NCBI GenBank assembly: GCA_017983695.1
Contig: JAGOAX010000003.1
Span: 124,001 to 188,000 of the forward strand
Length of the DNA: 64,000 bases
Direction: 5' to 3'
Origin: Ferruginibacter sp.
GTDB taxonomy: Bacteria > Bacteroidota > Bacteroidia > Chitinophagales > Chitinophagaceae
In this document: piece after piece, positions 17,083 through 29,266 of the stretch
Position numbering within the stretch: position 1 is the stretch's first letter
How the letters are laid out: each line of letters starts with the position of its first letter
Position numbers and translations under genes: made by a program
Notes under the pieces: model-generated
What the model saw: only the letters and a program-made list of their open reading frames with translations
Told to the model about the DNA's origin: nothing
Databases searched by the model: none

Positions 17083-17676
17083 ATGCAGCAAATTGTCGGT
17101 AGTTCTGTATTCAGCAAAAATAAGCTAGAGAGCATTTGTTATTTTTTCAGAAGCTTTTCGAATTATATACTGCAAAGTTCCTCCCCAACTCGTTGGGGAC
17201 GGAGGGGGCTAGCTTTCGGCTTGTTACTGTATTTGTTATCTTCATGTTCAGGTAAACCGCCATCTACAATGCAAAATACAAATTACGCCTTTCGCTTAAA
17301 ACCGGGGCAGGATTTAAAACAGGAAATTCAAAAATTTGTTACCGAAAAACAAATTACCGCCGGTTGGATTACTACCTGCGTGGGCAGTTTGACGGATTAC
17401 AATATCCGTTTTGCCAACCAGCCCAACGGCAGCACCGGCAGTGGGCATTTTGAAATTGTGAGCCTCACCGGTACTGTTTCTATCAATGGTTCTCACATCC
17501 ACATCAGCATCAGCGACAGCAGCGGCAAAACCATTGGCGGGCATTTAATGGAAGGTTGTAAAATTTATACCACTGCCGAAATTGTAATTGGCAGCAGCAA
17601 CGATTTTATTTTTATTAGAGAAAAGGATGGCACAACAGATTGGGAGGAGTTGCAGGTGGAGGAAATAAAAAAATAA
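17083..17676 (+). CDS. PCC (DUF296) domain protein, uncertain N terminus
   Basis: From about residue 63 the protein is a PCC/DUF296 domain (FRLKPGQDLKQEIQKFV, then SLTGTVSINGSHIHISI and GGHLMEGC). This small trimeric fold is also found in plant AT-hook proteins, and its bacterial role is not established. The first 60 residues are doubtful because they read through a CCCCAAC-TC-GTTGGGG hairpin (17183-17198) that looks like an intergenic repeat. Other starts are TTG 17221, which would give a short lipoprotein signal with lipobox LSSC, and ATG 17269, which gives a bare 135-residue domain. Coordinates show the longest frame. Confidence 0.65.
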   Translation: MQQIVGSSVFSKNKLESICYFFRSFSNYILQSSSPTRWGRRGLAFGLLLYLLSSCSGKPPSTMQNTNYAFRLKPGQDLKQEIQKFVTEKQITAGWITTCVGSLTDYNIRFANQPNGSTGSGHFEIVSLTGTVSINGSHIHISISDSSGKTIGGHLMEGCKIYTTAEIVIGSSNDFIFIREKDGTTDWEELQVEEIKK

Positions 17677-17715
17677 AATATTTGGAGGTCACAAATTGTG
17701 ACCTCCAAATATTTT
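17675..17715. promoter_or_regulatory. 41-bp perfect palindrome, copy A
   Basis: A 20-nt arm (17675-17694), one central A, and the exact reverse complement (17696-17715). Its core is GGAGGTCACAA-A-TTGTGACCTCC. It starts within the last two bases of the PCC gene, so it can also act as that gene's terminator. The same core recurs at 17768-17792 before the ORF6N gene. Confidence 0.75.
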
Positions 17716-17767
17716 ATTTACATAATTAAAATTGTAGTGACAAGGATATAAAGCTATAATCATTTAG

Positions 17768-17792
17768 TGGAGGTCACAATTTGTGACCTCCA
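17768..17792. promoter_or_regulatory. 25-bp perfect palindrome, copy B, before the ORF6N gene
   Basis: TGGAGGTCACAA, a central T, then TTGTGACCTCCA is the same core as copy A with the central base complemented. It lies 35 bp before the ORF6N start. Symmetry and position suggest an operator for a dimeric DNA-binding protein. The ORF6N product is the obvious candidate (inference). Confidence 0.6.
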
Positions 17793-19717: not shown

Positions 19718-21832
19718 ATGAAATTTTTTCCGGAATCCGCCTTGGTGCAGTTAGAGTTTGAAAAGGTAAAAACCTTGCTGGCATTGCAATGCCGTACAGA
19801 TTATGCCAAAGCAAAAGCCAGTGACCTGCGCATTCATACCAAAAAAGATTTTATTGAAACCGATCTGCAGCAGAGCAACGAGTATAAAATATTATTGCAA
19901 AGCAGCCAGTATTTCCCCAACGATTTTATATTAAACCTGCAAAAAGAATTAAAGCTGTTGGCCATACCCGGTGCCGTTTTAAAAGGAGAAGATTTTTTAC
20001 GCATAAAAAAACTGGCAGAAAATACCGGTAATATTTTCAGGTGGTTTGATAATGAGAACAGGGTGACTTATGCCGGCCTTGCAAAAGTTATTAATGATAC
20101 TTACTACGAAAAAGTAATTAACGAATTAATAGATGATATTTTAGATGAAACCGGTAATGTAAAGGATACCGCCAGTGAAGAACTGGAGCAGATACGCATG
20201 AGCCTGTACAGGAAACGTAATGAACTGCGCCGTTTGTTTGATAAGATAGTGGCCAAACTGAATAAGAGTGGCTACCTGGCAGATATTGAAGAAAGTTTTA
20301 TGAACGGCAGGAGGGTGCTGGCAGTTTTTGCAGAACAAAAGCGCATGATAAAAGGTGTATTGCATGGCGAAAGCGACAGCCGTAAAACAACTTTTATAGA
20401 ACCGGAAGAAACCACAGGGCTTAACAACGAAATTTTTTCTTTAGAACATGACGAGAGCAGGGAAGTGTACCGTATTTTAAGAACCCTCACACAAAAACTA
20501 AGTGTGTATGCCGGTCTTTTAAAAAATTATCATGATGTTGCCGGGGAATATGATTTTATAAGAGCCAAGGCAAAATTTGCCGGTGAGTATGGTGGTAATT
20601 ATCCGCAGGTAAATGATAAGGCGCATGTACATTTAATAAATGCTTATCATCCTTTATTATTCATTTATAACACAAGGAATAATAAGCCCACCATCCCGGT
20701 AAACCTCAGCTTAAACGATAAGCAACGTATACTTGTTATCAGTGGCCCCAACGCCGGTGGTAAAACAGTTACTTTAAAAACTGTGGGGTTGTTACAGCTG
20801 ATGTTGCAAAGTGGTTTACTGGTGCCGGTACATCCCGACAGCGAGATGGGAATTTTTAAACAGATACTCATTCATATTGGCGATACACAAAGTTTAGAAT
20901 TTGAGTTGAGTACTTATTCCTCTCATTTAAAAAACATGAAGCATTTTATGGAAAATGCCAATGGTAAAACCCTGTTTTTTATTGATGAGCTGGGTAGTGG
21001 CAGCGATCCTAATCTTGGAGGTGCTTTTGCAGAAGTGATTATGGAAGAGCTGGCACATAAACATAGTTTTGGTATTGTAACAACTCATTACCTTAATTTA
21101 AAAGTAATGGCCAATAAAGTGCCTGGTATCATCAATGGTGCCATGCAGTTTGATGAAAAGAATTTACTGCCCATGTATAAATTAATTGTGGGCAAGCCAG
21201 GCAGTTCTTATACATTTTCTATTGCTGAAAGAATTGGTTTGGAGAAAAGATTAATTGAAAAGGCACGAACACTGGTTGATGAAGATCATTTTACTTTAGA
21301 TAAATTATTAAACCGCACTGAGCAGGACCTGCAGAAAATTGATAAAGAAAAAAGCGAACTGCAAAAACTACTGAAAGAAAATGAACGGCTGAAAAAAGAA
21401 ATGAACCAGGTGCTGCATAAAGAAAAGCACCAGCAGGAAATAGAAAAGCTACAACATCAGAATAAAATATCGGAAGAAAAATTAATTTATTTAAAAGATA
21501 TGGAGCGCCGTTTAAAGGCCATGATTATTGAATGGCGCAAAACGGATGATAAGGACAAAGTGATAAAGATGATCCATGCTTTGCTGTTTAATCAAAAAGA
21601 AAAGTTTACGGTTGAAAAGCAGCAGAAAAAACTAAATGAAAAGTTTGAAGAAGTGGGCGGAGATATAATAATTGGTGCTAAAGTAAAGATGAAACAGAAC
21701 CGCCAGGTAGGTATTGTAAAAGAAATTAAAGGAAAAAAAGCGGTGTTACAGGTTGGTGTAATGCCCATCACTGTTGACCTGAAGGACCTTGTGGTGGTAA
21801 AAGACAAAGAACCCACACAAATAGTTTCGTAA
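19718..21832 (+). CDS. MutS2-type DNA-binding ATPase without Smr domain
   Basis: The 704-residue protein starts MKFFPESALVQLEFEKVK, like MutS2 proteins. It has the MutS core with Walker A GPNAGGKT (residues 343-350), Walker B FFIDELGSG (Asp423, Glu424) and TTHYLNLK. A long coiled coil follows (about 500-600), then a small KOW/SH3-like tail (GAKVKMKQNRQVGIVKEI). MutS2 proteins suppress recombination or act on collided ribosomes. Classical MutS2 is about 780 residues and ends in an Smr nuclease domain, which is absent here. The frame closes normally at TTTCGTAA, so this is not an obvious truncation. Confidence 0.88.
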   Translation: MKFFPESALVQLEFEKVKTLLALQCRTDYAKAKASDLRIHTKKDFIETDLQQSNEYKILLQSSQYFPNDFILNLQKELKLLAIPGAVLKGEDFLRIKKLAENTGNIFRWFDNENRVTYAGLAKVINDTYYEKVINELIDDILDETGNVKDTASEELEQIRMSLYRKRNELRRLFDKIVAKLNKSGYLADIEESFMNGRRVLAVFAEQKRMIKGVLHGESDSRKTTFIEPEETTGLNNEIFSLEHDESREVYRILRTLTQKLSVYAGLLKNYHDVAGEYDFIRAKAKFAGEYGGNYPQVNDKAHVHLINAYHPLLFIYNTRNNKPTIPVNLSLNDKQRILVISGPNAGGKTVTLKTVGLLQLMLQSGLLVPVHPDSEMGIFKQILIHIGDTQSLEFELSTYSSHLKNMKHFMENANGKTLFFIDELGSGSDPNLGGAFAEVIMEELAHKHSFGIVTTHYLNLKVMANKVPGIINGAMQFDEKNLLPMYKLIVGKPGSSYTFSIAERIGLEKRLIEKARTLVDEDHFTLDKLLNRTEQDLQKIDKEKSELQKLLKENERLKKEMNQVLHKEKHQQEIEKLQHQNKISEEKLIYLKDMERRLKAMIIEWRKTDDKDKVIKMIHALLFNQKEKFTVEKQQKKLNEKFEEVGGDIIIGAKVKMKQNRQVGIVKEIKGKKAVLQVGVMPITVDLKDLVVVKDKEPTQIVS

Positions 21833-21872
21833 AACTTTTGGGTTGAACTATTTCAAAACGTATTTTTGCAGC

Positions 21873-21957
21873 GGAGAGCTGGCAGAGTGGTCGATTGCGG
21901 CAGTCTTGAAAACTGTTGACTGTTACAGGTCCTGGGGTTCGAATCCCTAGCTCTCCG
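21873..21957 (+). tRNA. tRNA-Ser(UGA)
   Basis: An 85-nt class II tRNA. The acceptor stem GGAGAGC/GCTCTCC has discriminator G. The anticodon loop is CTTGAAA with anticodon TGA (21907-21909). A long variable arm contains CTGT-T-ACAG, and the T loop is TTCGAAT. The CCA end is not encoded (GCAC follows). It starts 40 nt after mutS2 and has its own terminator. Its 3' half is partly repeated at 22274-22341. Confidence 0.95.
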
Positions 21958-21960
21958 CAC

Positions 21961-21988
21961 AAAGCAACTTTATAGTTGCTTTTTTTTG
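21961..21988 (+). terminator. Terminator of tRNA-Ser
   Basis: AAAGCAACT (21961-21969), loop TTAT, then AGTTGCTTT (21974-21982) followed by Ts. It is placed immediately after the tRNA. Confidence 0.8.
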
Positions 21989-22002
21989 TTTAAATTTTTT
22001 TA

Positions 22003-22290
22003 ATGGCATTTTATGTTTACATATTGCAAAGCGATCAAGACAATAGCTATTATAAAGGATACTCTGAAAACCCTGCACTGCGTTTAGTTTACCATAATAA
22101 CAGGCTGAGTAACTATACTTCTAAAAAAACTCCATGGCAACTTGTTTGCGTATTATTCTTTGAAACAAAAAAAGAAGCATTAGGTGCCGAAAAGCGCTAT
22201 AAAAAATACCCTGTAAAAAGTCTGGAAGCAGTAATTAAAAGTAAAAAAAATATTTTATCCCAGTATTTAAATGGTCTTGAAAACTGTTGA
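22003..22290 (+). CDS. Small GIY-YIG nuclease ending inside a tRNA-Ser remnant
   Basis: The 95-residue protein is essentially one GIY-YIG domain. YVYIL and YYKGYS are the two signature strands, Arg in LRLVYHN is the likely catalytic arginine, and GAEKRYKKYP with the following KSLEAVIK are typical of the small stand-alone group. The last residues (LENC) and the TGA stop are encoded by 17 bases identical to the anticodon arm of the upstream tRNA-Ser. The gene therefore sits exactly between an intact tRNA and a second copy of its 3' half, which suggests that it is, or was, part of a tRNA-targeted element. Confidence 0.85.
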   Translation: MAFYVYILQSDQDNSYYKGYSENPALRLVYHNNRLSNYTSKKTPWQLVCVLFFETKKEALGAEKRYKKYPVKSLEAVIKSKKNILSQYLNGLENC

Positions 22291-22341
22291 TCCCGACATA
22301 GTGTCGGGAGTCCGAGGGTTACAAATCCCTCTCTCTCCGCA
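22274..22341 (+). pseudogene. Degenerate 3' half of tRNA-Ser
   Basis: Bases 22274-22290 equal tRNA positions 21903-21919 (anticodon arm, TGA anticodon kept). A variable-arm-like hairpin TCCCGACA-TAG-TGTCGGGA follows, then a T arm GAGGG...CCCTC with an 8-nt loop, and an acceptor strand TCTCTCCGCA. No 5' half precedes it, so it cannot fold as a tRNA. It forms the distal border of the GIY-YIG insertion. Confidence 0.85.
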
Positions 22342-22342
22342 T

Positions 22343-22376
22343 AAAAGGGTAAATCAAATTTGATTTACCCTTTTTT
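22343..22376 (+). terminator. Terminator after the tRNA remnant
   Basis: AAAAGGGTAAATCAAA (22343-22358) is followed directly by its full complement TTTGATTTACCCTTTT and two more Ts. It is probably the original terminator of the tRNA-Ser before insertion. Confidence 0.8.
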
Positions 22377-22473
22377 ATGCCCTTCATTTTAAAATAAGAG
22401 CAAATCTTTTAAACTCGTTTTGCACAAACTGATATTATTTTGATAAATACAGCTACATTTGATTACGATTGCT

Positions 22474-23061
22474 ATGAAGAAAAAGTTGCCACTAACTGCC
22501 CAGGAAATACATGAACTTCAAAACCGGATTGCGGATTATGATGATGTGGCAGCCTATAAGAAACTATTTTTTCATTTTTTTCTTCCTCTTAAAAGTTTTT
22601 CCTTTTCGATACTAAAAACAAAAGAAATTGCCGAAGAAGTGGTTTCCGACGTTTTAATAGAAATTTGGGGCAGGCGCAAGCAATTACCTGGTATAGAGGA
22701 TCTAAAAATGTATTTATATGTGAGTGTTCGCAATTCCTCTTTGCGAAAGCTGCAACAAACTCAAAAAACTACCGTGCTTTCACTGGATGAGCTTGAAGTA
22801 GAGTTTGCCAGTGCCGATCCTGATGCAGAGGCTACTTTAATTACCGGCGAGCTGGCAAAAAAAATTGAATTGGCCATTGAGCAATTACCACCTCAATGCA
22901 AAATAATATTTAAGCTGGCAAAAGAAGACAAACTTAAATATAAAGAAATAGCCGTACTGTTAAATATAAGCGTTAAAACTATTGATAACCAGCTTTCTAC
23001 AGCGCTTAAAAAAATCGCCTCTGTTTTAAATACCCCTGTTAATAAGCCATCTGCTGATTAA
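22474..23061 (+). CDS. ECF sigma factor, FecI-like
   Basis: The 195-residue ECF sigma-70 factor has region 2 at about residues 30-95 (AEEVVSDVLIEIWGRR) and region 4 at about 128-185 (QLPPQCKIIFKLAKED, then YKEIAVLLNISVKTIDNQL). ATG 22474 is preferred to the TTG at 22459. It is followed by a FecR-type anti-sigma and SusC/SusD, the arrangement in which SusC signals through FecR to release the sigma factor when its glycan is bound. It probably drives transcription of the downstream locus. Confidence 0.9.
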   Translation: MKKKLPLTAQEIHELQNRIADYDDVAAYKKLFFHFFLPLKSFSFSILKTKEIAEEVVSDVLIEIWGRRKQLPGIEDLKMYLYVSVRNSSLRKLQQTQKTTVLSLDELEVEFASADPDAEATLITGELAKKIELAIEQLPPQCKIIFKLAKEDKLKYKEIAVLLNISVKTIDNQLSTALKKIASVLNTPVNKPSAD

Positions 23062-24332: not shown

Positions 24333-24413
24333 AACAGGCAAATAAGGAAAACTTGAATCACTTTACGATTGGACTTAAGGGTTCCCTTTTTTAATTTACC
24401 AAAACATAAAAAT

Positions 24414-26171
24414 ATGAAAAAAAACAAACGATTGTTTGCTTCGGACACCAAAATTCATATCAAATTTTTACTGCATATGAAATTAACGATTGCTTTTATG
24501 TTGATAGCAGGCTTGCAGTTATCAGCAAAAACATATTCTCAGCAAAGGATTACTTTAACACTACAGTCTACAGAACTAAAATCTGCTTTAAAACAAATTG
24601 AGAAAAAGAGTATTTACAGATTTTTGTATAATAATGATGTTTTAAAGTCTGATCAGAAAATTAGTATTGATGCTTTTAATAGCCTGGTTACAGAAGTGCT
24701 GGATAATGTTTTTAATAAAACTTCATTAACCTACCGCATTTTAGAAAATAACCTTGTAGTTATAACACAAAAAAACTTTATAACCCAGGACGTAAAGGTA
24801 ACGGGTAAAGTAACCGGCCCCGGTGGCGAACCTGTACAAGGGGTTAGTGTAAAAATTAAAAATTCGGCCGTGGGTACTGCTACCGATGCTGCAGGTTTTT
24901 ATACAGTGTCGGTACCCGAAGGTGCCAGGCTTGTTTTTTCTTCTATTGGATATGTAGGAACGGAAGTGCCTGTAAATGGCCGTACCGAAATTAATGTGGT
25001 ATTACAACTGGCTGCAAAAGATATTAATGAAGTTGTGGTAATTGGATATGGCACTGCCAGTAAAAGAGACCTTACCGGTTCAATTGTAAAAATTTCCGGT
25101 AAAGAAATTGCAGATAAACCCAATACTAACCCTGTTGCTTCATTGCAGGGAAAAGTTGCAGGACTTTCTATAGTTAACAATGGTACACCCGGCCAGGCTC
25201 CGGATATAAGGATAAGAGGAACTGTAAGTATTGGCCAGGTTCACCCGCTTTATGTGGTTGATGGTATTTTTAATGATAATATTGATTACCTGAATGCAAA
25301 TGACATAGAGTCTATTGAGGTTTTAAAAGATCCTTCTTCTTTGGCAATATTTGGTGTTAAGGGTGCTACAGGTGTAATTGCCATTACAACAAAAAAAGCT
25401 AAAGCCGGCCAGGTAGTAGTTAATTTTAATACCTCGTATGGTACTAAAAAACTGGTAGATAAAATTGAAATGGCAAATGCTGCAGAATTTGATTTGCTTT
25501 TTGCAGAAGAGAATGCTAACAATGGCGTTGCCACACCAAATTATTCTGCTTTAACTGCAAATACCGATTGGATTGATGCGGTTACAAGAACTGGAAAATT
25601 CAATACCAATAACTTAAGCGTTTCAGGAAGTACCGAAAAAAATAAATTCACACTTGGATTAGGATATCTTACTGATGAAGGCATGATAAAGCATGAAAAG
25701 CTGGAAAGAATGTTGCTTTCATTCAGTGATGAATTTAAAGTAAATAAGGCAATAAAGCTTGGTGTTAATCTTAATGCATCAAGACAGAATAATCCTTTTG
25801 GTGCAGGCTGGGTTTTAGATGCTGCAAGAAAAGCAATGCCGCAGATCAGCGCAGGTACTAAATCGTTCCGTGTGGCAAACCCTTATGGCGGCGACAGTAT
25901 TACTCAAAATATTTATTCAGGCTTAGCTTTGGCATTCCAAAATTCAGGGGTTGTTAATCCTTTATTGGAAGTTGAAAATACCTGGAACAAAAGAATCAGT
26001 ATTGAATATAGAACTGTAGGTAGTGTTTATGCAGAGCTTAATTTTCTTAAGAATTTTACCTTCAGGTCAACTTTTTACGCAGATGTAAGTAAGGTCTTAT
26101 ACGGATATAGCTTTACAGTTTTTAGGGTAAAACTAAAAACTGATGAAAGAAAAAATGCTGGACCGATTTAA
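24414..26171 (+). pseudogene. SusC-like TonB-dependent receptor, 5' part, cut by an IS
   Basis: Residues 1-566 are authentic SusC: a signal sequence, an STN domain for FecR signalling, a carboxypeptidase-regulatory-like domain (VTGKVTGPGGEPVQGVSV), the plug (VVVIGYGTASKRDLTGS) and the start of the barrel. The frame then enters the IS at 26111 and stops at 26171 after about 20 foreign residues. Removing 26111-27513 joins GGATATAG to TAAAACC in frame and rebuilds one receptor of 1149 residues with the 3' part. ATG 24414 opens the basic N terminus. As it stands, no full barrel can be made. Confidence 0.9.
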
Positions 26172-26508
26172 GTTTTCTGATGAACTTAAAGAGAAGCTGG
26201 TGATGATGGTGATCTATCAAAACCGTCTTCCCAAACAACTATCCGAACAGTATGGATTACCCAATGCCCACATGCTGGTCAACTGGGTCAATATTTACAA
26301 AAAGACACTTGAGAAAGGAGCTATAACTTTGCCTCCGATGCAAGCCAAAAAGAAAAAAGATACGCCTGCTTTAAAACAGAGGATCAAGCAACTTGAAAAG
26401 TCTCTTGAAAAAGCTAATGTTATGATATACGGGTTGAATGTGATGATAGATTATGCTGAAAAAGAGTTGAAGGTCCCTCTAAGAAAAAAGCATGGCACCA
26501 AACAATAA
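26143..26508 (+). CDS. IS3 transposase OrfA
   Basis: The 121-residue helix-turn-helix protein (FSDELKEKLVMMVIYQ, then LSEQYGLPNAHMLVNWV) ends in a leucine-zipper-like helix (ALKQRIKQLEKSLEKAN). It recognises the IS ends. It overlaps orfB by one base (TAATG). The heptamer A-AAA-AAG at 26484-26490 allows a -1 shift to make the OrfAB fusion transposase. Confidence 0.9.
   Translation: MKEKMLDRFKFSDELKEKLVMMVIYQNRLPKQLSEQYGLPNAHMLVNWVNIYKKTLEKGAITLPPMQAKKKKDTPALKQRIKQLEKSLEKANVMIYGLNVMIDYAEKELKVPLRKKHGTKQ
26484..26490 (+). other. -1 ribosomal frameshift site of the IS
   Basis: A AAA AAG in the orfA reading frame is the canonical -1 slippery heptamer of IS3-family elements. After slippage the orfB frame is open from here into the ATG at 26508 without a stop. 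Confidence 0.75.
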
Positions 26509-27461
26509 TGCTGATTAAAGAAAAGCATATTACAAGGATGGGTGTCGGGCCTCTTTGTAGATTGTTTGGTAAATCCCGTCAAGCCTTTTATCATAGAAAA
26601 CACTATTTTTTAGAGAAAGAGGAACAAGAATTAATTGTATTGGAACTTGTAGCCCAGGTGCGGAGGGAACTTCCCGGTTTGGGAGGTCATAAGTTGTACA
26701 AATGTATTTATCAGCCCTTACGAACTAATGGAATAAAAATAGGGCGTGATAAATTGTTTACTATCCTGCGGAACCATAAATTACTGATAGACAGGAAAAG
26801 GAGAAATCCCAAAACAACTCAATCCAATCACTGGTTCAGGCGATACCCTAATTTGATAAAAGTAATAGAAGTAGTTCGGTCGGAACAACTGTGGGTAGCC
26901 GATATTACATACATTAGTATTGGCTATGACTTCAATTATTTATCACTCATTACTGATGCTTATTCAAAGAAAATAATGGGATACTGCCTACACCCGTACC
27001 TAAGTAATGATGGTTGTATTGAAGCTCTTAAGATGGCTTTGTCAAACAAGACATCACCTACTAACCTTATACATCATTCTGATAGAGGTGTTCAATACTG
27101 TAGTTATGATTATGTTTCTTTATTAAAAGAAAACAGAATCTCCATCAGTATGACAGAAAGCGGAGAAGGATACGATAACCAGATTGCTGAAAGAGTCAAT
27201 GGTGTATTGAAAACAGAGTTCAATCTTCATCAAATATACAAATCACGAACAGATGCACTGCTTGCAGTAAAACGAAGCATCAATGCCTACAATAATTTTA
27301 GGCCGCATATGAGTTGTAATTTTCTAACACCTATAGAAGCACATACAACAGATCAAGTGTTATTAAAGCGATGGAAGAATAGCCGTAAAAGGCTGTCAAA
27401 AAGTAAAGAACAAACTGCTTTCCATAAGCACCAAGAACTAGTTCAACAAAATTTAATTTAA
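26508..27461 (+). CDS. IS3 transposase OrfB (DDE integrase core)
   Basis: The 317-residue protein has an N-terminal HTH_21-like region (YHRKHYFLEKEEQ, then LPGLGGHKLYKCI) and an integrase catalytic core. The DDE residues are in WVADITYI, HHSDRGVQY and IAERVNGVLKTE. It is normally made as OrfAB by -1 frameshifting. The frame is intact and of full family length. Confidence 0.93.
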   Translation: MLIKEKHITRMGVGPLCRLFGKSRQAFYHRKHYFLEKEEQELIVLELVAQVRRELPGLGGHKLYKCIYQPLRTNGIKIGRDKLFTILRNHKLLIDRKRRNPKTTQSNHWFRRYPNLIKVIEVVRSEQLWVADITYISIGYDFNYLSLITDAYSKKIMGYCLHPYLSNDGCIEALKMALSNKTSPTNLIHHSDRGVQYCSYDYVSLLKENRISISMTESGEGYDNQIAERVNGVLKTEFNLHQIYKSRTDALLAVKRSINAYNNFRPHMSCNFLTPIEAHTTDQVLLKRWKNSRKRLSKSKEQTAFHKHQELVQQNLI

Positions 27462-27523
27462 AGCTTTATTTTGTGTAAAATTTATTATTAACCAACCTTA
27501 AAAAACTGTACAGTAAAACCCGT

Positions 27524-29266
27524 ATGATACCTAATGTAAACAGCAGGCAGTATTCGCCGCTTTATTATGCTTATGACCCTATGACAAGTACACCATACCT
27601 GTACAATGCAAAAACACAGGTAAGTGAAAATGATGATACTTACAGAAAATTCCAACAGGATCATATTTTAACTTTCAGAAAAAAATTTGGAGATCATAAT
27701 TTAACTGCCACTGCAGGTATTACCACGTACTATTTTAGTGCTTTTGCAAGGAGCGGAGTTGCTAAACCTTTTACACTTGGTAATGCATTACCAATACCTG
27801 ATGATAAAAGATTCTGGTATATGAGTACCCAGTTTAACGACCCTGCAGCCACTATTGCAGGTTCAGATCAAAGGGAATACGCTACCGCTTCTGTATTGGG
27901 AAGGGTATTGTACAACTATAAAAATAAATACTACTTCAATGCGTCATTAAGAGACGACGCTTCTTCTCAAATTCCCACACAAAACCGCCACCAGAAATTC
28001 TGGGCATTAGGTGCTGCATGGGATTTAACAAAGGAAAATTTTATGCAAAATATTACTGCTATTGATTTTCTTAAATTAAAAGCCTCAATTGGTGTTTTGG
28101 GTAATCAATCAGCATCTTACCTGGATGGTACACAAATTAATTATCCATTTTATCCAAGATTAAATACCGGTGTTGGCGCTCCATTTGGTATTACACCTTA
28201 CCTGGCTGCAGAAAACTCTTATGAGCCAAGTGTAGATCTTAAATGGGAAACTGTACAAGCACAGGAAATTGGAATTGAATTAAATGCATTTAAAAACCGC
28301 CTGCATTTTGAAGCCAATTACTTTAATAAAACAACCAAAGACCTGATGACTTTTGTGGACAGAAGTGTTCAGGGATTGAGAGCAATATTAGAAAATGGCG
28401 GTAGTTTCAGAAACTGGGGCGAAGAATTTTCTGCATCATGGAGCCAGACACTTAAAAAAGACCTTACGGTAAATGTTGGCGGCAATATCACTTTCTTACA
28501 AAACAAAGTGGTAAGCGTAAATGATAAAATACCGGCAGGATTTTTATCAAGAGCATTCCAGAATAACGGAAGTGCAGAAAGCAGAACTCAGCCAGGCTTA
28601 CCCATCGGTTCTTTTTACGGATATGTTGTAGAAGGGGTTTACCAGAGCTATGCTGATGTTTTAAAATCACCTATTGCATCTGCGGTAGGAGCTTATGGCC
28701 CCGGCGATTTAAAATTTAAAGATGTAAATGGCGATGGTGTAATTACTGCAGATGACAGAACTGTAATTGGTAACCCAACACCTAAGTTTACTTATGGCAC
28801 AAACATAAATGTAAACTACAAAAATTTTAATTTAGGAATTGACATGGGCGGTGTATATGGCAACCAGGTATTCCGTACATGGGGTTCTTTAGAGTCGCCT
28901 TTCCAAAGGGTAAACTATCCTAAAGAAAAATTAAACAGGTGGCATGGTGCAGGTACTTCTAACTGGACACCAATAATAAGCCAAGGGCACAGGTTTAACT
29001 ATAATGGTTCTACTTATAATATAGAAGATGGAAGCTATTTCAGGCTAAGAAATATTCAATTGGGTTACAACTTTGGCCAGCAACTGATCTCTAAAGCAAA
29101 AATGAAAAGTTTAAGGGCTTATGTGAACATACAAAATCCTAAAACATGGAAAAACAATTTAGGATATACTGCTGAATTTGGCGGAAGCGCAACTGCATTT
29201 GGTTATGATAATGCAGGAGGTGCAATACCAGTTGTAACCACATTTGGACTGAACGTAACTTTTTAA
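27524..29266 (+). pseudogene. SusC-like receptor, 3' part (beta-barrel)
   Basis: This is the C-terminal 580 residues of the receptor split by the IS: barrel strands, FKDVNGDGVITADDRTVIG near residue 410 as in many SusC proteins, and a terminal aromatic strand (VTTFGLNVTF). ATG 27524 is an internal methionine. The part has no signal peptide and cannot be exported alone. In-frame codons continue back to 27514 at the IS edge. Confidence 0.9.

Follow-up and report, generated by a model that had tools for sequence, protein, structure and literature searches.

The window, a 64,000-nt stretch of a Ferruginibacter sp. genome, contains a compact unit in the neighborhood of genes for MutS2, a sigma factor and FecR, in which an intact tRNA-Ser(UGA) is followed in turn by a terminator, a 95-aa GIY-YIG nuclease gene, a partial copy of the tRNA-Ser and a second terminator (Table 1). 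The original prediction had this layout at the right coordinates, and its exact 17-base repeat with a 371-bp period was likewise recovered; by a rough estimate, one such exact match would arise by chance in 1.3 kb with a probability <1e-4. The match between the tRNA and its copy continues to the tRNA 3' end, with a second repeat block (21934-21963 and 22316-22345) showing 80% identity at a spacing of 382. Reading the nuclease gene codon by codon bore out the claim that it terminates within the anticodon arm: its final codons, GGT CTT GAA AAC TGT TGA, are the anticodon arm plus the following bases, i.e., the last five codons and the stop are copied tRNA sequence. As also anticipated, there is no integrase between the tRNA and its copy, the GIY-YIG gene being the sole ORF in that interval. 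A group I intron was rejected, since an Rfam scan of 21500-22700 returned the tRNA alone above the gathering score and no intron structure. The presence of terminators directly before the nuclease ORF, in units with the intact gene upstream, suggests low, read-through expression.

Table 1. Features of the tRNA-Ser unit, in window coordinates
Feature	Position	Strand	Evidence
Intact tRNA-Ser(UGA)/(TGA), the putatively parasitised RNA gene; left part of the unit	21873-21958	+	ARAGORN; Rfam RF00005, 52 bits
17-bp direct repeat, copy 1 (anticodon arm and following bases)	21903-21919	+	
Proximal intrinsic terminator, AAAGCAACT..AGTTGCTTT plus T-run, between tRNA and nuclease gene	21961-21990	+	
GIY-YIG nuclease gene, 95 aa, single domain	22003-22290	+	PF01541 E=1e-12
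Partial tRNA-Ser copy (tRNA positions 31-86), variable arm swapped, T-loop broken	22274-22340	+	
17-bp direct repeat, copy 2 (start of the partial tRNA copy)	22274-22290	+	
Element hairpin TCCCGACATAGTGTCGGGA, at the tRNA variable-arm position	22291-22309	+	
Distal terminator stem, perfect 16-bp palindrome; outer unit end or native flank	22343-22374	+	

In the partial copy, the variable arm CTGTTACAG is exchanged for a GC-rich hairpin and the T-loop, GGGTTACAAATCCC, is one base over the normal length; with these two changes the copy could not function as half of a tRNA. The acceptor strand of the copy reads TCTCTCC, the type seen in most relatives, and mismatches that of the resident tRNA (GGAGAGC/GCTCTCC), which indicates that the copy was not derived from the present resident gene. 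The leftover had been understood as a tRNA 3' half displaced when the element supplied a replacement; being hairpin-armed and of a different acceptor type, it is not simply that. The pattern TCCCGAC..GTCGGGA has two occurrences in the window's genome, both inside partial tRNA copies, and the hairpin was accordingly rejected as a host-wide REP in this genome, an identity that may still apply in Flavobacteriia. Elsewhere in the same genome (L195; G000:C30, palindrome at 197250-197268), a partial tRNA-Asn copy with a TCCCGACTTGTAGTCGGGA hairpin lies behind an intact tRNA-Asn and has no GIY-YIG gene; it appears to be a decayed or non-autonomous unit.

The nuclease possesses a homing-type catalytic domain with the conserved active-site residues (Y, G, R, H, E): PF01541 was found in 24 of 24 family members tested, and the window protein retains the family-conserved Y6, Y17-G19, R27, H31 and E63. 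No extra DNA-binding domain is evident, and its nearest solved structures are the single-domain UPF0213 proteins BH0048 and EF2693 (PDB 1zg2, E=1.5e-16; 1ywl, E=2.5e-15). It had no match among the PADLOC models and is not a known anti-phage defence gene. The nuclease evolves under purifying selection, the median dN/dS of 48 independent pairs being 0.21. In a tree built from 71 columns, with weak branch support, the nucleases track the target tRNA better than the host family (isotype takes 37 changes, where 500 shuffles never gave fewer than 70; host family takes 65, with a shuffle minimum of 82), and the isotype grouping spans up to 16 host families. This pattern is compatible with, but no proof of, super-Mendelian transfer through break repair or gene conversion.

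Of 395 Bacteroidota genomes, 255 yielded relatives of the nuclease in a profile search, frequently more than one per genome, and the other 140 yielded none. Searches of phage, plasmid and viral collections yielded only weak matches outside Bacteroidota and no clear relatives. We collected 146 arrays. For six of them the DNA query had itself contained the tRNA, which introduces a slight bias; 11 ended at contig edges, and the other 135 were assessable. An intact tRNA abuts 123 of these on the same strand and none on the opposite strand, and about 0.4% per array would be expected by chance for same-strand adjacency (our own estimate, with 43 tRNAs in 3.9 Mb). The tRNA is directly upstream in 101 arrays, directly downstream in 19 and inside the array in three. 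When named genomes (Ferruginibacter, Sediminibacterium, Taibaiella, Pedobacter, Solitalea, Paludibacter and others) were scanned independently at the protein level, 35 of 43 non-edge loci likewise had a same-strand tRNA beside them. The isotypes include Asp, Asn, Ser, Pro, Val, Met, Ala, Arg, Leu, Lys, Gly, Phe, Gln and Glu, and the 12 exceptions among the assessable arrays divide into three abutting RNase P RNA, one abutting tmRNA, five with tRNA fragments and three that are unexplained. The nuclease gene is seldom found away from RNA genes, and its targets comprise most tRNA isotypes and tmRNA, and perhaps RNase P. At the RNase P loci (L091, L092, L105) the family GIY-YIG genes end about 20 nt before the RNase P RNA on the same strand, and no second, partial RNase P copy was detected there. 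For three family genes (L124, L139, L151), neither a tRNA nor any other Rfam RNA was detected in the vicinity; these possibly have another target or are relocated copies.

The units come in two mirror-image forms. In form A, to which the window unit belongs, the nuclease gene has the intact RNA gene before it and, after it, a partial copy that extends to the 3' end of the RNA. Form B has the opposite order: first a 5' partial copy that begins with base 1, then the nuclease gene and, downstream, the intact RNA gene; this arrangement had not been foreseen by the original prediction, which envisaged a 3' copy only. Measured against a null of mismatched tRNAs, the partial copy exceeds the 95% point in 107 of the 138 units of form A and in 24 of the 26 of form B. 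Partial copies may begin as early as the D-arm. In the tmRNA-associated element (L141) it is the 3' end of the tmRNA that is copied, and the T-loop of this copy contains a hairpin.

A comparison between species reveals both empty and occupied alleles of the mutS2-tRNA-Ser locus. Six relatives with enough sequence lack the nuclease and the partial copy alike, so that no empty relative retains a partial tRNA at this place. Different elements are held there by the window, L069 and L019: the second has a different GIY-YIG unit with a near-complete hairpin-bearing tRNA copy, and the third a broken one. The only empty site with both sides available (L029) conserves the mutS2 and sigma-factor flanks, with 147 nt in place of the window's 501. 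Its terminator is unlike either of those in the window, and the empty site ending in the 22343-22376 terminator that had been predicted was not found there. Between two and five units are present in 52 of 197 arrays. Across 14 form A arrays, comparison of the sequence after the intact tRNA with that after the inner copies gave a mean of 0.89, vs 0.63 with that after the last copy, as though the proximal terminator arrives with the unit and the native flank is displaced outward. Arrays also include derivatives without the nuclease gene. For instance, about five 170-bp GIY-less units lie between a tRNA-Asp and one full GIY-YIG unit in Sediminibacterium roseum (L201, 1596-2509). Another locus (L244, 319-1074) has eleven 67-bp tandem units, each a 5' tRNA-Asn copy plus a hairpin, directly upstream of a tRNA-Asn and with no nuclease gene; the genome in question encodes seven nucleases of the family.

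A GC-rich hairpin absent from the intact tRNA was found in 89 of the 105 arrays with a detected copy, vs 144 of 400 random segments. Of 29 clean hairpin insertions, 24 are located in a D, anticodon or T loop, where 12.4 would be expected, and in the Asp clade stem pairs are altered on both sides with pairing kept, i.e., by compensatory changes. Hairpin sequence, number and position nevertheless vary widely among copies, and position tracks the nuclease phylogeny only weakly under a noisy labelling (44 changes vs a shuffle minimum of 43 and mean of 52). Putting the native tRNA sequence back in silico lowered the predicted correct folding of the intact tRNA from 0.32 to 0.22 in form A, an effect that is suggestive only, as any replacement could matter; the same replacement produced no drop in form B units. 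Four Flavobacteriia have 12-78 similar palindromes per genome, most of them not close to a listed GIY gene, so the hairpins are not exclusive to these elements everywhere.

Taken together, the window locus looks like one of hundreds of similar Bacteroidota elements, which seem to be minimal mobile parasites that spare an essential RNA gene. Judged from sequence, the unit behaves like a free-standing homing endonuclease gene, with membership of that class being putative, and we consider it probable (at about 0.6) that it is a minimal mobile cassette of this type specialised on structural RNA genes, with cleavage and transfer as its inferred activities. The proposal of a homing unit on tRNA genes is thereby sustained at the level of the class by the phylum-wide same-strand link, the partial copies, the empty relatives, the arrays and the GIY-less derivatives, but its specialisation on tRNA-Ser is not, as most isotypes and tmRNA are hit. 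Under this proposal the small GIY-YIG protein would act on an allele that lacks the unit, cutting or nicking the target RNA gene within a conserved stretch. The broken ends would then be repaired from a unit-bearing copy, in which the intact RNA gene at one end and the partial copy at the other provide the homology, and repair would copy in the nuclease gene and the spare half with the whole RNA gene retained. Tandem arrays could result from cutting of an occupied gene or from unequal recombination between copies. The hairpins may destroy the target or the tRNA fold in the partial copy, which would thereby go uncut; a copy armed in this way might also avoid misfolding with the intact tRNA and be a poorer partner for deletion. 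The model is weakest in accounting for the purpose of the hairpin and for how the intact gene escapes cutting in the occupied allele: this gene still resembles the target, and hence self-cutting must be weak or blocked.

Several known systems share parts of this organization. REP/RAYT and IS200/IS605-like systems combine a small nuclease gene with short GC-rich palindromes and palindrome-only derivatives, as do the present units; however, their nuclease is of the Y1 type and they are dispersed, whereas here the nuclease is a GIY-YIG protein (a RAYT identity was rejected, as the protein is not a Y1-type nuclease) and the palindromes lie inside a partial copy of a specific RNA gene, arranged in tandem at that gene. 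Islands and satellites that integrate at tRNA genes use the gene, leave it intact and have a partial tRNA repeat at the far end. The present units do likewise, but lack an integrase, and their partial copy is long, hairpin-armed and sometimes 5'. The UPF0213 proteins (PDB 1zg2, 1ywl), the closest of solved structure by sequence, are also single domains of about 90 aa; the new feature here is the tRNA-linked, multi-copy context. Group I introns with homing endonucleases, of which the tRNA-fMet anticodon endonuclease referred to in PMC3984707 is an example, resemble the units in targeting a conserved tRNA gene and in having an endonuclease gene flanked by target sequence; unlike them, the present unit has no ribozyme, and the RNA gene is kept whole by duplication rather than splicing. 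The T4/T6 homing endonuclease SegB is likewise the product of a free-standing GIY-YIG gene among phage tRNA genes: it cleaves tRNA-containing DNA and favours the inheritance of its own region, and recent work showed that it drives tandem amplification dependent on recombination (PMC2988022; PMC13096335). The cutting and amplification steps proposed here thus have a precedent (PMC13096335). SegB, however, is a phage protein in a tRNA cluster for which no partial, hairpin-armed copy of the target RNA is described, whereas the present units are chromosomal across a bacterial phylum, associate with one RNA gene each, span about 300-450 bp, and include 5' and 3' forms as well as GIY-less derivatives.

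The hairpins lend themselves to other explanations. The GIY-YIG protein might recognise the GC-rich hairpin, in the manner in which Y1 transposases recognise REP hairpins, and move it with adjacent DNA into the loops of RNA genes, which would make the partial tRNA a unit end rather than a homology arm. The near-universal presence of covarying, loop-placed hairpins of TCCC..GGGA style in copies of different tRNAs and families, the confinement of the pattern to partial tRNA copies in the window's genome, and GIY-less arrays comprising little beyond partial tRNA and hairpin are in line with such transposition. We nonetheless regard it as unlikely, given the wide variation of the hairpins in sequence, number and position, the many TCCCG palindromes of Flavobacteriia away from listed GIY genes and, to our knowledge, the absence of any transposase among GIY-YIG enzymes. 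On evidence that is less than decisive, we favour a hairpin that disarms the copy, be it against cutting, misfolding or deletion, over one that directs transposition. Loop placement and compensatory changes, which imply selection on a folded strand, could also reflect a system operating on RNA, with the protein cleaving tRNA or tRNA-like transcripts and the hairpin-armed copy being a decoy, antidote or processing signal. Although the predicted folding of the intact tRNA is raised by the hairpins of 3'-copy units, those of 5'-copy units confer no such gain, and GIY-YIG nucleases are, as far as we know, DNases; we therefore hold this scenario to be quite improbable.

The nuclease might instead be a resident repair or RNA-processing gene of the UPF0213 type, duplicated locally near tRNAs by ordinary means. 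Its closest solved structures and the frequent recombination at tRNA loci fit such an origin, which is rendered improbable by the patchy distribution (missing from 140 of 395 genomes, many-copied in others) and by a tree that follows the target isotype across host families; it also fails to predict mirror forms or hairpin-armed copies of the adjacent RNA, including tmRNA. We attach very little weight to the notion that the locus is the scar of a larger integrase-borne island which has lost everything but the GIY-YIG gene. While tRNA 3' ends are common attachment sites of islands, and a partial 3' copy is present at the far end, more than 100 loci contain just the GIY-YIG gene, copies can begin at the D-arm or, in the mirror form, be 5', and neither an integrase inside the unit nor more than weak matches to phages, plasmids and viral contigs outside Bacteroidota were found. 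The mirror forms and the missing integrase led us to reject an integrase scar.

Returning to the homing-type cassette, a search of the literature other than subscription papers and bioRxiv recovered no earlier description of tRNA-linked GIY-YIG genes in Bacteroidota. We tentatively suggest, at somewhat under even odds, that the units constitute an undescribed, Bacteroidota-wide class of mobile elements: hairpin-armed, RNA-gene-rebuilding GIY-YIG cassettes that parasitise essential structural RNA genes by bringing along an extra 5' or 3' portion, expand into tandem arrays and give rise to GIY-less units down to 67 bp, which are perhaps mobilised in trans. If so, with a single gene of about 95 codons these would rank among the smallest known mobile elements that are autonomous; they would be widespread across a major phylum of bacteria and directed at some of the most conserved genes of the cell. 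They would exemplify the invasion of an essential RNA gene without splicing, by means of partial duplication and a hairpin disarming the leftover, and would be a chromosomal counterpart to SegB-type tRNA-linked amplification. They would also account for many small GIY-YIG genes next to the tRNA genes of Bacteroidota, as well as for many of the partial tRNAs and tandem repeats found there, and would offer testable isotype-matched pairs of nuclease and target.

Two other features of the window lie apart from the unit. An IS3-like insertion (26092-27532), with orfA at 26143-26508, an rve-domain orfB at 26508-27461 and imperfect 32-nt inverted ends, splits a SusC/TonB-type receptor gene (24369-26171 and 27524-29266). 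Further upstream in the window (17671-17792), a small gene is followed by two near-identical palindromes, TGGAGGTCACAA(A)TTTGTGACCTCCA, that lie within about 120 bp.
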